Program-made: the position numbers and the translations under genes
Assembly (NCBI GenBank): GCA_938075675.1
Contig: CALJHE010000002.1
Span: 1-64,000 of the forward strand
DNA: 64,000 bases
Origin: Candidatus Poseidoniaceae archaeon
GTDB taxonomy: Archaea; Thermoplasmatota; Poseidoniia; Poseidoniales; Poseidoniaceae
Direction of reading: 5' to 3'
The notes under the pieces: model-generated
Told to the model about the DNA's origin: nothing
The model's input: only the letters and a program-made list of their open reading frames with translations
The model's database searches: none
Shown here: in pieces, positions 19,773-27,920 of the stretch
How positions within the stretch are numbered: the first letter of the stretch is position 1
How the letters are laid out: each line of letters begins with the position of its first letter

Positions 19773-20633
19773 TTAACCGCCGATGACAAGCGCACGGGTT
19801 CGTAGCTGTGCAAATCGATCGGGGTAGTGGCCCAAAGCAAAGGCAACCATCTCAGCGAGATGGAGAATCGGCATTGTCGTATCTTTACGTGCAATTTTAC
19901 CGGCTTTGGATTGGTAGGAGTCGAGGTTTGCATGTGAAATGGTACATGCCGAGACGATGAGGTCGGCACCACTTGACTTTGCATCAGAGAGGACTGCAGC
20001 CGTCATGCGCATCACTGGCTTGTTAATTGTTAGCAAAGATGGAGCACCGACGCTTTGGCATTTGAGGTCATATTCAACGGGAGTGCCTCCGAGAGCTGTA
20101 ATGAGTTGTTCCATGTATGTAGGCATGAATGGGTCATCAGCACCGCAGGCTCCGCTCCGTTGCATAGTTGAGCCGTAGTAGGCAGCGACATTCAAGCGAA
20201 GTGGATTAATAACAGCATCTCGGATCTTATCCAGTCCAATCTCTTCAACCAGGAAGTGGAGAAGGTGGCGTGACTGAGATTCACCGTTGTATTCGATACC
20301 TGAGGTTCGAGCAACAATATTGTTCACATGGTTAGCAAAGCCTTGGTCGTCGTTGAATTCATCAATCGTGTCACACATGATACCATGGCTTGTCGCACAA
20401 GTCGTTAGGACATCGAGGCCCTTCGATTCTGCGAGTGCGAGGTTGCGTGCAACCAATGCATGTTGGAGTTTTGGAGATGATTGTTTGATGATGTTTCCAC
20501 CGTCACTGCTGGCCTTTGGGAGTTCCGTTAATTGAATACCGAGAGTCTTGCAGAGCGGTTGAATACAATCCTCTACTTCGGAAGATGCAGCACGAGCGGC
20601 ATTACCGGGGTAATATGCAATTTTTACAGCCAT
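19773..20633 (-). CDS. HdrB/SdhE-like CCG-domain protein with most cluster cysteines lost
   Basis: 286 residues. The fold markers of the heterodisulfide reductase B / archaeal succinate dehydrogenase CCG subunit are in order: YYPG at the start, LTTCATSHG (about 77-84), LNVAAYYGSTMQR (about 148-159), YDLKCQSVGAPSL (188-200), GADLIVSACTISHANLD (222-238) and PILHLAEMVAFALGHY near the end. In the family each half has C, CC-G and CxxC ligands for a non-cubane cluster. Here GC is GN (10-11), the first CCG is SDGG, the second is SVG, and each CxxC keeps only its first Cys (C79, C230). It therefore probably holds no such cluster. A GAGGTGG Shine-Dalgarno site precedes the ATG, nine bases after its upstream partner, so both are one operon. 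Redox role inferred only. Confidence 0.75.
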   Translation of the reverse strand: MAVKIAYYPGNAARAASSEVEDCIQPLCKTLGIQLTELPKASSDGGNIIKQSSPKLQHALVARNLALAESKGLDVLTTCATSHGIMCDTIDEFNDDQGFANHVNNIVARTSGIEYNGESQSRHLLHFLVEEIGLDKIRDAVINPLRLNVAAYYGSTMQRSGACGADDPFMPTYMEQLITALGGTPVEYDLKCQSVGAPSLLTINKPVMRMTAAVLSDAKSSGADLIVSACTISHANLDSYQSKAGKIARKDTTMPILHLAEMVAFALGHYPDRFAQLRTRALVIGG

Positions 20634-20642
20634 AAATCCACC

Positions 20643-22610
20643 TCAGAACCTCTGGTCAATCTCATTGAAGAGGCTAACGACTTCGTGGTGCGCCTCAACT
20701 TTGGTGTTAATCATATTCGGAATTTTACCAATACCTGCAGGTGGTGCAAGAAGTGCTTGCAGACTTCGGAATGGTGGTGCACCGGTTCGTGTAAAGCCGA
20801 GGAACATACGGGCAGATACGCCATCGAAAATGTTGCTCAAAAGACCGACTGGTCCGAGTACTTGACGGTAAAGTGTGGTTTCGTTAACGTTGCCGCTCCA
20901 CTTTACACTGCGACCGTACCACTTCACGAGTCGTCCATGAGGACCAGAATAATTGTTAGAATTCAATAATTTACCACGTGCGGTGTTGAGGGCTTTTGAA
21001 GCAGTACGTCCATCAGAGCTGTATCGGGCAACTGAGGTGAAGTCTGCCTCTGCCCAGACGCCATGTTCGCTCCCAATTGAAGCCATCAAGGAATCACGCT
21101 GTGATTCGCCAGTTCGTGGGTCAACACACCGATTCCATTGCTGCAAGAGGACTCCCGGACCCATGTACTCCGAATCATAGGCAAAAGTATCGGACATTGA
21201 CTGCAACAGTTGGAAGGAAACTACATCCCCCATTGCGTGGAGGGTGTTCGCAGTGGCAGCTTCCATCGTGCCCATTGGGCTACCGTTGAGAAGGGTGTGG
21301 CCGTCACGAGGGTCGGCCTTCATCCACGGTTCACTGGATGAACGTGTTGTTTCATACGATGTGTAGTCGACAACAAGGTCACGTACAACTGGATATCCTG
21401 GGACTGGCTCCACTTTGAGGACACCACCTTCATTGACTAAATCACTGATTTGAGCAAGGTCAGACAAAACAATTCGACCGTTGACTCGAACACCGGATGT
21501 TGGAGATCCATTACCGCTTCCTCTTCGGAAAGCAAGGCTTCCATCCACGTCTTGTTGGACTGCCATAAGTAGGTCTTCAACAGTAGCATGACCTGGCACT
21601 GCGCATGCGATGGTATCCCATCCTGAATCTGCGGCTTCAGGGCAGTAGCGGAACAAGGAAAGTGTGATGGAAATGTCTTCTTGAACAATGGAGCCCGGAG
21701 TGAAGTCACCTTCGACAACCTCGTCGCCAGAGCCAGAACCGTATTCGATCATCTCATCGAGAAGTACTTCCTGCAATGTACCCGATTCATCGACACAAGC
21801 AATGATAGGAAGGGCTTCTGCAACCCATTGTGCCCACGGAGTATCGAAGTCTACATCGCACAATTGAGTGGTGTGAACCTTGCTTGCACCCAATGCAACA
21901 TACTTCTCATCCCAGTCAGTTCCAGCCTTGCAGAATTCGTCGTATGAAGAATCGCCGATCGCACAGACACTGAATGAGACTCCAGACATCGATGGTGCTT
22001 GAGTGCTGACGGATTGCCAAAGAGATTCAGCATTGTCGGGCATTTCTCCCTCGCCCCAAGTGGATGTAATAATGAGTGTACGCTTGTGATTTGGAAGGGT
22101 CGCTGCGTCGAATCCATCCATGTCGTAAACGGTAGGAACGAGCCCATAGTTTGCGGCGAGTTTTGCAGTTTTCTCAGCAAGACCCGCAGCGTTACCCGTT
22201 TGAGAGCCAAAAAGAATGGCAAGTGAACGGTCGCCGCCACCGAGAAGGGCTTGGAGTTCTGCGCTCCCTCCAGTAGCAACAGCTACGGTTGCGGCAGGTG
22301 CTGCAGCAACTTCTACCGCAGGTGCAACCTCTGCTACTGTTTCAGTTGCGCCGTCGGTTTGAAGTTCGAACTTAATAATCTCAACTGGACAAGCATCAGC
22401 TGCTTCAAGAATCATCTCACCGTAATCACTGCCGAAAGAACCAGCCATGGAGGCTCCACCGACGTTTCGGTCGAGAACGCCATCGGTGCGGACTGCAGCA
22501 ACAATCTTCGATGAATCATCGGAAACCAAAAACACTTCAGGACAAATATCCTGACAAGCGTCACATGTGATGCAATCTTCTTCAATCCACACCTTTGCTA
22601 CGATGGTCAT
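20643..22610 (-). CDS. ferredoxin-flavodoxin-SdhB-like fusion protein
   Basis: 655 residues from ATG 22610 (MTIVAKVWIEED), preceded by GAGGGTGA. Part 1 (1-85): ferredoxin with CxxCxxCxxxCP at 13/16/19/23 and a later CP at 74, enough for one [4Fe-4S] cluster. Part 2: Ala/Pro-rich linker. Part 3 (about 130-285): flavodoxin domain with the FMN loop FGSQTGNAAGLAEK and TSTWGEGEMP, as in sulfite reductase-type flavodoxins. Part 4 (about 305-655): SdhB-like, recognisable by FRR, VNGRIVLSD, VVRDLVVDYTSYE, YMGPGVLLQQWNRCVDPR and HGVWAE, but every Cys that binds the 2Fe-2S, 3Fe-4S and 4Fe-4S clusters in SdhB is replaced (e.g. the plant-type motif reads FRRGSGNGSPTSG). It forms an operon with the HdrB-like gene. 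Electron transfer between ferredoxin and FMN is likely; the partner enzyme is unknown. Confidence 0.8.
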   Translation of the reverse strand: MTIVAKVWIEEDCITCDACQDICPEVFLVSDDSSKIVAAVRTDGVLDRNVGGASMAGSFGSDYGEMILEAADACPVEIIKFELQTDGATETVAEVAPAVEVAAAPAATVAVATGGSAELQALLGGGDRSLAILFGSQTGNAAGLAEKTAKLAANYGLVPTVYDMDGFDAATLPNHKRTLIITSTWGEGEMPDNAESLWQSVSTQAPSMSGVSFSVCAIGDSSYDEFCKAGTDWDEKYVALGASKVHTTQLCDVDFDTPWAQWVAEALPIIACVDESGTLQEVLLDEMIEYGSGSGDEVVEGDFTPGSIVQEDISITLSLFRYCPEAADSGWDTIACAVPGHATVEDLLMAVQQDVDGSLAFRRGSGNGSPTSGVRVNGRIVLSDLAQISDLVNEGGVLKVEPVPGYPVVRDLVVDYTSYETTRSSSEPWMKADPRDGHTLLNGSPMGTMEAATANTLHAMGDVVSFQLLQSMSDTFAYDSEYMGPGVLLQQWNRCVDPRTGESQRDSLMASIGSEHGVWAEADFTSVARYSSDGRTASKALNTARGKLLNSNNYSGPHGRLVKWYGRSVKWSGNVNETTLYRQVLGPVGLLSNIFDGVSARMFLGFTRTGAPPFRSLQALLAPPAGIGKIPNMINTKVEAHHEVVSLFNEIDQRF

Positions 22611-24457: not shown

Positions 24458-27400
24458 TTAAGCCTGCCCATTTTGCTCAAGCCACATTTGGCCGTAGACA
24501 TTCCACTGTTCCATGGTCCATCCATCGGGCAAACCTGCAGCAGGAACCGGTGGAGCCGTTGAAGCAGTACTGAGTTGAGGCGATGGAGCTGTTGGAGCAG
24601 GGGCGATTGGAGGCGCTGCTGCAGGAGGAGTACCGACTGGAAGGGAAATTGATGGCAGTGACTTTGGTATATCGTATGCTGCACCAGCGACAGGAACTGT
24701 TGGTGCTGCGGCAACAGCGCCATAGGTTGCTTCGACGCTGCCTTCGTAACCTTCTTCTCCCCAGCCTCCGTAATCGTCTTCTTCTTCCTCTTCGGTGAGG
24801 ATGCGGAAAATTACTCCAACGCCGATGAGAAGAACAACGATGAAGCCAATCCAAGTGAGGATTGAACCAATGTCTACGCCATCAGAATCTCCGCCGGCAC
24901 CGTCAGTGGAAAGATCGGAACCGGTCTTGATCAACTGAAGTTGTAAAGTGGTGCTGGATGCATCACTTACGGTTTGAGATTCAGCCCATAGGGTAAGGTT
25001 GGTGAACAGAGAGTCGCTGCCGAGATTGTTAAGGGTCGTCGATGAAACGGTGAATATGACCGTAACTTGTCGTTCTTCTTCGACATCCAAGGAGAAGGTC
25101 CTGTCGCCGTTGGCAAGTTTGGATTGCACCCAGTTCGAAGAATCACCACTGTCGAGGTTCATAGATACGGATTGTGCAGTCGTGTATTGGTTTCGAACGG
25201 TAACGGTCATTGACCAAGCATCGACAGGTTCTGCCTCATCGATGACGAGCATCTCCGTTGGGATAATCTTTAACCAATTTTGAGAACCAACAAGATAGGT
25301 TGCTGAACCTGAAGAACTGATGGTCGCATCGTTGACGCTGGTCGCAATGATATCCAACACCAATTGACCTTCAGTACCATCTTGGAAGGAAAAGCGAACC
25401 GAAACGTTGTAACTGCTTCCGGTAGGAATCTCTGGCGTCATTCCGTCAAAGAGATTCGTGAACTCGATGTTCATGCCGGCTGGCGAGTTCGAAGTCATCG
25501 TGAAGCGGTCGACATTGTTACCATCGTTGAAAACTTCGAACTGCATGGTTTGAGCAGATTGACCCGGTATGTAGGATTGGTCGGCATCTTCGTCTGAAAC
25601 TCGGACTGCTGCCGTGTCAAGAATGTCCACCGTAAGGGTAATTGAAGCCTTGACCGATGAATCATCAACACTCGTTGCAGTAACAGTAAGACTGTACAGT
25701 TGAGGGGCCAATCCGATTGGCATTGGCAAATTCAATTGAATAATCGATGAGCCATCCCAAGCATCCATAACTGCAGTTTGGCTGCTTGCCAAGTTTGCAC
25801 CAAGTTGCCAGTTTTGTTGAGTTAAGGAGAGGTCGTACTGCTCGTCATCGTTACCTGTGTTGTAGATGCTGATGTAAACTTTCTCTGCCACGCCATTCGC
25901 TGGCCCTGAAAGATCAGTGTTGTCTGTTTCCATTGAAACTTGACGAAGAACTGGCACCTCAATGTTGCGAGTAAGTACATCGTTACCAAACAAAGCACCG
26001 CAAGATGGGCAGGTTGCTCGTAAAGTGAAAGAAACAGTACCTGGATTTGCTTGGGTAGCTGCAGTGACGTTCAACTGAAGATTGACGCTCTCCCCACGGC
26101 CGACATAAACAGGACTGGAGACAGACGCACCAGTATCATTGACAAGGAGTGCAGACCAATCATCCTCGGAAAAAGTGGTAGCGAGATTGAATGAAGCATC
26201 TCTGTTTCCAGAGTTTTGCAGACGGAATGGGACCAAGCCCGACTGACCAGGGCCAAACGAGCCTGCTTGGAGACCAACGGTCGATGTGAGAGACACACCG
26301 AATTGTTCAGTAACGCCGACTGGCGAAGATATTCGCGCCTTCTCTCCGGAGTTCTGCCCGGATGCATCCGTAAACCACAGTTCCCAAGTGAGTTGCTGAA
26401 CATCAGCGCCAGGTGGTATGGTGAGATTGACCCAAAGGTCGATAGAACCACCACCAGGGATTGGAGGGATGAGAATACTGGTATCGTGGTCAGGGACCAA
26501 AGTCGAATAGCCTGCACCGTTCAGGTACACTGCGTCTTGACGAATCATTGGATTTGCAGGGTTCATCCATGTGAGATTAGAGATATTTGACTCCGAGCGG
26601 ATTGTCGCAGGTGCGTATCCGTTGTTGGTAACCGTACAATACAAAGTAAGGAGATCGTTTGGTGGGGCTGAATAACCGTTTTCTGGAGCGTCGCAGTTGA
26701 CATCCAATGTATACTCTTGCACCTTACGAACTCCAAATTGAATCCAGTCATCCACATGGAACCCCTCAGTTGCTCCGCTGCTGTCGCTGCGAAGGACCAT
26801 TCCCATCGAGAATGAGTTTCCGCCAAGGAATACATTTTGGTTGGTCACATATGGGTTTTGAAGATAAGTTACTTGAGGGTCCCAACTGATACGAGTCCAT
26901 TGGTCCGGAGCCTGGCTCGGGTTGCCTTGGGCGATATCATAAACTATGGATTCGTTGATATTTTGGCTACCAGAACCACGCCACATTTCAATCGAAACAC
27001 TGTCGCCAGAGGCAACACTGCCCCATGCTTGAATATGTATTTGCGAAGAGATGTAGTTTGATGCATAGAATACATTTCGACAAATCCAAGTGCCGTATAC
27101 TTGAGACATTCCAGCGTCGAGTTGAGCGTTTGCACCGCAGTTGTTGCCGTTGGTAGAGATGAATGAATTGACGAGGCGATCGTGTGCATTTGAAGGATAG
27201 TTGTTACCCGACTCAGCATTGCCCCAATGTTTGGAACCTACGGCTCCACCAGAAAGGTCGGTCCATGAGCCATCGCCGTTTGCGTTACCCCCGTCAACAG
27301 GATAGCGGGCTGGAATGAAGGTTGAAGACTGAGTTGTTGTTCCATCGAAGGAATCTCGCATTATCGCTACCGGAACGGTCTTTTCCATCATGTCGTTTTC

Positions 27401-27889
27401 GTTACGGTCGTCACCGTTCGAGTCCTTGTCAATCATGGCTCGGAGGGTGAGGCCACCAGAAAGGTCATTGGTCGTTGTATCGAGAATCGAATGTGCTGCA
27501 GTTGGAGTCCAGATGAACGTTTTGGAATCAGATTGACCACTGACGAGATCTCCGGAGGTCCAATTGAATGTTTCCATCACATACCCGATTGGGTGGATGA
27601 CCTGAATCATGGCAATACTGTCTTTACCGATGAAAGAACTGCCTCCACGTTGAATTTCCATCCCGATCTCAATTGAATCTCCTTCGAACAGATAATCGAC
27701 GATAGAACCGTCTGATTGCGTCCATTCTTCAGCCGCATCAGTTGCGTTACCAACGGAAATAGAAACGACACGCCAATCATCGTTTGCCCCACCACGACCA
27801 GCAGCAGCACTGGCGGGTGCAGCCATTCCTAAGGCAAGAGTTTGGAACAACAATAGGGCAACAAGGGTCAACGGAGTGATACGACGCAT
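24458..27889 (-). CDS. large secreted surface protein with C-terminal membrane anchor
   Basis: About 1143 residues from ATG 27889 (MRRITPLTLVALLLFQTLAL), a clean signal peptide ending near APASA. The ectodomain consists of beta-rich segments resembling tandem Ig-like/CARDB modules, recognisable by repeated 'NxGN' turns such as QNSGNRDAS, YNTGNDDEQ and FNDGNNVDR. A CPSCG pair lies near residue 635. A single transmembrane helix (ILTWIGFIVVLLIGVGVIF) follows, then an acidic stretch, a Pro/Ala-rich cytoplasmic tail and a terminal LPDGWTMEQWNVYG module. An in-frame GTG at 27916 is possible, but the TATA-like site at 27921-27927 lies only ~9 nt before it. Role in cell surface structure or binding is inferred. 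Confidence 0.8.
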   Translation of the reverse strand: MRRITPLTLVALLLFQTLALGMAAPASAAAGRGGANDDWRVVSISVGNATDAAEEWTQSDGSIVDYLFEGDSIEIGMEIQRGGSSFIGKDSIAMIQVIHPIGYVMETFNWTSGDLVSGQSDSKTFIWTPTAAHSILDTTTNDLSGGLTLRAMIDKDSNGDDRNENDMMEKTVPVAIMRDSFDGTTTQSSTFIPARYPVDGGNANGDGSWTDLSGGAVGSKHWGNAESGNNYPSNAHDRLVNSFISTNGNNCGANAQLDAGMSQVYGTWICRNVFYASNYISSQIHIQAWGSVASGDSVSIEMWRGSGSQNINESIVYDIAQGNPSQAPDQWTRISWDPQVTYLQNPYVTNQNVFLGGNSFSMGMVLRSDSSGATEGFHVDDWIQFGVRKVQEYTLDVNCDAPENGYSAPPNDLLTLYCTVTNNGYAPATIRSESNISNLTWMNPANPMIRQDAVYLNGAGYSTLVPDHDTSILIPPIPGGGSIDLWVNLTIPPGADVQQLTWELWFTDASGQNSGEKARISSPVGVTEQFGVSLTSTVGLQAGSFGPGQSGLVPFRLQNSGNRDASFNLATTFSEDDWSALLVNDTGASVSSPVYVGRGESVNLQLNVTAATQANPGTVSFTLRATCPSCGALFGNDVLTRNIEVPVLRQVSMETDNTDLSGPANGVAEKVYISIYNTGNDDEQYDLSLTQQNWQLGANLASSQTAVMDAWDGSSIIQLNLPMPIGLAPQLYSLTVTATSVDDSSVKASITLTVDILDTAAVRVSDEDADQSYIPGQSAQTMQFEVFNDGNNVDRFTMTSNSPAGMNIEFTNLFDGMTPEIPTGSSYNVSVRFSFQDGTEGQLVLDIIATSVNDATISSSGSATYLVGSQNWLKIIPTEMLVIDEAEPVDAWSMTVTVRNQYTTAQSVSMNLDSGDSSNWVQSKLANGDRTFSLDVEEERQVTVIFTVSSTTLNNLGSDSLFTNLTLWAESQTVSDASSTTLQLQLIKTGSDLSTDGAGGDSDGVDIGSILTWIGFIVVLLIGVGVIFRILTEEEEEDDYGGWGEEGYEGSVEATYGAVAAAPTVPVAGAAYDIPKSLPSISLPVGTPPAAAPPIAPAPTAPSPQLSTASTAPPVPAAGLPDGWTMEQWNVYGQMWLEQNGQA

Positions 27890-27920
27890 AAGACCAACGA
27901 GACCTTCCAGTTTCACGCGG

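Follow-up and report, generated by a model that had tools for sequence, protein, structure and literature searches.

E-type (non-classical) SdhABE enzymes, or 8-methylmenaquinol:fumarate reductases, are known from Wolinella and Acidianus (PMC2680327). They combine an SdhA with a dicarboxylate active site and a covalent-FAD His, an SdhB fold with 12 Cys ligands for a [2Fe-2S] and two further clusters, and an SdhE with ten cysteines in two CCG motifs. The HdrB subunit of heterodisulfide reductase has two non-cubane [4Fe-4S] sites, also in two CCG motifs. Candidatus Poseidoniales (Marine Group II, MGII) is an order of abundant archaea of the surface ocean. Canonical complex II and RnfB have been described in a survey of MGII (PMC6336850). 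The locus considered here is mentioned in passing as an SDH cytochrome b and a sulfite reductase flavoprotein (Pereira et al. 2019, PMC6741140). This is its single mention in the open-access PMC literature searched, which holds no described system of this layout, in agreement with a preliminary description of the locus.

The window is the whole stretch of 64,000 nucleotides of a Poseidoniaceae genome that was analysed. It contains two adjacent minus-strand ORFs, P0001 and P0002, separated by a gap of 9 nt (Table 1). We designate divergent relatives of SdhB, SdhE and SdhA as SdhB*, SdhE* and SdhA*, ferredoxin as Fd and flavodoxin as Fld. An alternative start of P0001 is possible at a GTG five codons upstream of the ATG.

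Table 1. Features of the gene pair, in window coordinates
Feature	Position	Strand	Remarks
Fd-Fld-SdhB* fusion protein (P0001)	20643..22610	-	655 aa from ATG; profile matches, family-wide conservation
SdhE*/HdrB-like partner (P0002)	19773..20633	-	286 aa; 8/10 CCG cysteines replaced
N-terminal [4Fe-4S] ferredoxin domain	22341..22610	-	residues 1-90; ligands C13, C16, C19, C74; Pfam Fer4_13 5.7e-10
Flavodoxin domain, CysJ/P450-reductase type	21786..22229	-	residues 128-275; FMN loop FGSQTGN; Pfam Flavodoxin_1 1.1e-27
SdhB* N-domain (Fer2_3 fold)	21336..21677	-	residues 312-425; four [2Fe-2S] ligand positions replaced
SdhB* C-domain	20946..21335	-	residues 426-555; eight cluster-ligand positions replaced
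C-terminal extension of P0001	20646..20945	-	residues 556-655; putative SdhE* contact
Retained Cys79, N-terminal CCG motif of SdhE*	20397..20399	-	in 72/73 homologues
Retained Cys230, C-terminal CCG motif of SdhE*	19944..19946	-	in 72/73 homologues; remaining one X

The preliminary description had related the two proteins to SdhB and to HdrB/SdhE, and both profile searches and predicted folds agree. Significant matches were obtained for SdhB, CCG/HdrB, ferredoxin and flavodoxin; in addition to the Pfam matches in Table 1 they include Fer2_3 (the SdhB N-domain, 2.5e-10) and CCG (1e-4). The NCBIfam models of SdhB (PRK05950, 5e-19), HdrB (TIGR03288, 7e-40) and SdhE (1e-37) also matched, all with scores below the curated equivalog or subfamily cut-offs. 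PDB sequence searches concur (HdrB 1e-32, SdhB 2e-9, small ferredoxins). The Fer4_8 match is confined to the N-terminal ferredoxin of P0001; the SdhB C-domain is left unmatched, as expected once its cysteines are gone.

The AlphaFold2 model of P0002 (pLDDT 86, pTM 0.88) has a predicted HdrB fold, which Foldseek matched to HdrB with TM 0.84 and 27% identity. Its low-confidence loops (13-17, 41-47, 198-201) sit near the sites of the former CCG cysteines. The SdhE* fold also matches PDB 3kwl, a hypothetical protein of Helicobacter pylori (TM 0.66). In the AlphaFold2 model of P0001, the SdhB-like part matches E. coli FrdB (TM 0.84 of target) and the flavodoxin domain matches the FMN domain of P450 reductase. 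Elsewhere this model is weak (pTM 0.42), above all in the linkers and the C-terminal 80 residues; the low confidence for the C-terminal extension applies to the protein modelled alone, as a single chain. The extension is one of the most strongly conserved regions of P0001 and is similar to the C-terminal extension of E-type SdhB. It may form the contact with SdhE*.

All cluster-binding cysteines of SdhB had been described as replaced in P0001. We aligned it with the intact E-type SdhB proteins of six Thermoplasmatota genomes and with the canonical SdhB of the window's genome, and found Cys at none of the 12 ligand positions. The same positions are non-Cys throughout 77 SdhB* homologues, except for one position that is Cys in four sequences; no homologue within the order restores the SdhB clusters. 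Two of the former ligand positions are Ser and Glu in 77/77 homologues (S473 and E521 of P0001 when numbered from its ATG; residues 478 and 526 in the numbering of the alignment).

The earlier statement that both CCG motifs of the partner are gone is correct for the window's genome, with the reservation that one Cys per motif (C79, C230) is still present in P0002; family-wide it does not stand. Two of the ten SdhE cysteines are left in P0002, and neither non-cubane site of HdrB is. The C-terminal motif, bar C230, is lost in 73/73 SdhE* homologues. Nine early-branching genomes, drawn from both families, have kept an intact N-terminal motif, one of these nine with Ser at one position; the motif is down to two Cys in most sister-family genomes and to C79 alone elsewhere. 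Because these early-branching genomes still have it, the clusters of SdhE appear to have been lost in steps. The best tree has two losses of the N-terminal motif. We do not regard two independent losses as settled, since a single loss stays acceptable (AU p 0.47). The window's genome also encodes intact CCG proteins and canonical SdhAB, and therefore the loss of clusters is specific. One of its proteins, EtfD/TfrB-like and 679 aa long (L110:2459-4495, plus strand, contig C6), has two CCG matches, so the organism still produces CCG proteins; this protein has an additional N-terminal region, which is apparently membrane-bound.

The ferredoxin domain and the FMN loop are intact, as first described. 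The N-terminal domain of P0001 has the CxxCxxC...CP ligands typical of a single-cluster [4Fe-4S] ferredoxin and would be expected to bind one cluster; the four ligands are kept in all Fd-bearing homologues save two rows masked by N/X. A fifth, non-ligand Cys lies past the motif at residue 23 (22542-22544). Ala, Leu or Tyr takes its place in roughly one third of the Fd-bearing homologues, with the four ligands unchanged. The next domain combines a flavodoxin fold with the FMN phosphate loop and is predicted to bind FMN; it is the sole flavodoxin match in the window's genome assembly.

The carriers of the pair are Poseidoniales. Within the window's family, 140 of 146 genomes have the SdhB* fusion, among them 21/21 high-quality ones, as do 30/30 sampled genomes of the sister family. 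No full-length fusion was found elsewhere in the phylum sample, which includes another family of the same class. Gene order at the locus is conserved throughout the order, the neighbours being a Hef-type helicase, a thermosome and a large surface-type protein. These are housekeeping or uninformative genes, and operon context was rejected as a functional clue. The 1152-aa surface-type protein is encoded beyond the thermosome gene (24461-27916, minus strand) and occurs in all sufficiently long loci across the order. Between close relatives dN/dS is ~0.01-0.1 in all parts of the pair, which is thus constrained by strong purifying selection and is not decaying. A local error or decay was rejected on the grounds of order-wide conservation, dN/dS and synteny. 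A record titled Rhodobiaceae bacterium (L217) has the Poseidoniales locus at 71% identity and is probably a mis-binned contig.

Other Thermoplasmatota have neighbouring SdhA, SdhB and SdhE genes with all 12 SdhB and 10 SdhE cysteines. P0001 scores 44-61 bits against their E-type SdhB, far above the 15 bits that it reaches with the canonical SdhB encoded in the window's genome. By sequence comparison, the pair evidently derives from a succinate:quinone oxidoreductase of the E type (SdhABE), with the folds of SdhB* and SdhE* kept. Canonical sdhAB is encoded separately in the window's genome. It is followed by a gene of a 132-aa MauE/DoxX-like protein (L108:8519-8914, plus strand), which is not a recognised SdhC/D.

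A candidate third member, SdhA* (556 aa, C22:30218-31885), is encoded outside the 64-kb window, unlinked to the pair, and orthologues of it occur in nearly all Poseidoniales. Among its best matches beyond the order are SdhA genes adjoining E-type SdhB-SdhE. The FAD-linking His, the substrate His residues, TExxRGEG and the GANR Arg are absent from 15/15 sequences, i.e., both the dicarboxylate active site and the covalent-FAD His of an E-type SdhA are missing; the Rossmann and C-terminal FAD-site motifs are kept in part. A position inside E-type SdhA is not established by the tree, the AU test giving p ~0.10 for each of the E-type and canonical placements. SdhA* may be the partner of SdhB*. A second strong SdhA-like match (C1:13825) was identified as L-aspartate oxidase NadB.

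The carrier domains of the fusion vary. Besides Fd-Fld-SdhB*, many genomes have Fld-Fld-SdhB* and some have Fld-SdhB*. Ferredoxin seems to have been swapped for, or lost beside, flavodoxin repeatedly: on the tree of the SdhB* core and SdhE* its presence switches about 15 times, at least 13 times on supported branches. A CysJ-like FNR, encoded, as SdhA* is, outside the SdhB*-SdhE* operon, varies too. It is bare, i.e., without flavodoxin, in the window's genome (C5:83360-84607) and has an N-terminal flavodoxin in some other genomes. All 100 Fd-bearing genomes have a bare FNR (flavodoxin-fused, 0/100), and the 37 Fd-less genomes have a flavodoxin-fused FNR in 22 cases and a bare one in 15 (Fisher 6e-16, kinship ignored). 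Among 13 phylogenetically independent contrasts, 5-11 (mean 7.7) have the same direction and none the opposite one (median p 0.008). Four of five Fd-less genomes with a single flavodoxin in SdhB* have an FNR with flavodoxin. In three lineages the FNR flavodoxin clusters with the Fd-replacing flavodoxin, away from the SdhB*-adjacent one. This joint change of carrier domains in two unlinked proteins is the main new functional evidence. The correlation could also reflect a general shift from Fd to Fld in these lineages and not direct contact.

At L108:1361-4385 (C5), the bare FNR gene is divergent to that of a CrtI-like FAD protein, ~3.3 kb from canonical sdhAB; an Fld-FNR form (L093) is flanked by the same neighbours. 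No sulfite reductase (NIR_SIR) match was found in the window's genome, where absences are provisional as the assembly is ~90% complete. Sulfite reduction was therefore rejected as the role of this FNR, which requires a different partner. P0001 is not the cell's sole ferredoxin, since further small ferredoxin-like ORFs are present, and the FNR could use those instead.

We propose, giving the idea an even chance, that a stripped SdhB/SdhE (possibly SdhA) scaffold holds an Fd/Fld relay exchanging electrons with FNR and NADP(H). SdhB and SdhE of an E-type SdhABE would have been stripped of their Fe-S clusters and kept as a scaffold, possibly joined by the equally stripped SdhA-like flavoprotein encoded elsewhere. 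Grafted onto it would be a relay of two carriers, a [4Fe-4S] ferredoxin or second flavodoxin and then the FMN flavodoxin. The separate CysJ-like FNR (FAD) would exchange electrons between NADP(H) and Fd or the first Fld, and the latter would exchange them with the FMN flavodoxin beside SdhB*. At the far end there might be a source such as a 2-oxoacid:acceptor oxidoreductase, or a sink that binds to the former SdhA/SdhE surfaces. Since the window's genome has one 2-oxoacid:acceptor oxidoreductase, no sulfite reductase match and no other flavodoxin match, oxidation of Fd/Fld to give NADPH is plausible, as is the reverse supply of low-potential electrons. The location of FNR and SdhA* outside the operon and the 15 Fd-less genomes with a bare FNR count against the proposal.

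In a wider and more tentative form, which we hold to be somewhat short of probable, a whole SdhA-SdhB-SdhE complex lost its ancestral redox centres and its catalytic residues and became the framework of a new NADP(H)-linked Fd/Fld electron-transfer complex. Its clusters would have been shed stepwise, possibly on more than one occasion, and the iron carrier repeatedly traded for a flavin, perhaps as an adaptation to surface waters that are poor in iron and rich in oxygen.

The fusion may alternatively be a stand-alone Fd-Fld carrier that SdhB* and SdhE* merely tether, e.g., at the membrane, with no SdhA-like subunit involved. We find this unlikely, at perhaps one chance in several. It fits the unlinked position of SdhA*, whose phylogenetic tie to the E-type operon is not settled, and the nature of E-type SdhE, which is without transmembrane spans and probably associates with the membrane by amphipathic helices (PMC2680327). 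However, the conservation of the C-terminal region and SdhE* exceeds the needs of a passive tether, and almost all members of the order have an SdhA*, which shows the same kind of reduction.

It is more doubtful still that the complex remains an oxidoreductase with a new site in SdhE*, formed by C79 and C230 with H123 and H234 (a dithiol/disulfide or a mononuclear metal) and fed by Fd-Fld with NADPH electrons via FNR. All four residues are invariant or almost invariant, whereas the remaining CCG cysteines have been lost, and the CCG positions of HdrB ring its heterodisulfide-reducing pocket. On the other hand, conservation of H123 and H234 is already seen in the intact homologues, and where the N-terminal motif is kept, C79 is a cluster-ligand position. 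Degeneration of a dying complex II paralogue that bears a useful ferredoxin-flavodoxin, to which one might ascribe the missing catalytic and ligand residues of SdhA*, SdhB* and SdhE* (lost stepwise in SdhE*), is very improbable given the low dN/dS in all parts, the invariant replacement residues, and the occurrence of the pair, in conserved synteny, in almost all genomes of two families.

The proposed scaffold-bound relay concerns a near-universal and strongly constrained Poseidoniales pair that appears to be mis-annotated as parts of succinate dehydrogenase and sulfite reductase. In SdhE*, Fe-S cluster loss can be followed through intact, half-lost and lost states of one orthologous protein. 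The fusion offers a repeated natural exchange of Fd for Fld in one polypeptide, matched by a change in another, unlinked protein. It becomes directly testable how an electron-transfer complex with several centres loses its wiring and yet persists.

The evidence points to an undescribed electron-transfer system; its novelty is the combination, each domain family being already known. The pair was not assigned to the E-type oxidoreductases or heterodisulfide reductases, since their defining features were looked for and are missing. It shares with E-type SdhABE the SdhB and SdhE folds, gene adjacency and the C-terminal SdhB extension, and no closer cluster-bearing relatives were found than the intact SdhABE operons of other Thermoplasmatota. 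It differs in having no SdhB cluster, SdhE CCG motifs that are partly or wholly lost, an unlinked SdhA-like gene without active-site residues, and Fd-Fld fused to the SdhB N-terminus. With HdrB/HdrC it shares the HdrB fold of P0002, in which 8/10 non-cubane-cluster cysteines are replaced, and the partner is an SdhB-like fusion, not HdrC or HdrA. Architecture, cluster loss and function are without analysis in the mention of the locus by Pereira et al. (2019). The flavodoxin domain is of the type found in diflavin reductases (CysJ, NADPH-cytochrome P450 reductase) and FNR-flavodoxin systems, and the genome's CysJ-like FNR has a flavodoxin content that tracks that of SdhB*; unlike in CysJ and the diflavin reductases, the flavodoxin is mostly fused to an SdhB-like scaffold instead of FNR, and there is no sulfite reductase match here. 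If our reading is right, the system with its re-used scaffold would work more like an FNR-flavodoxin system.
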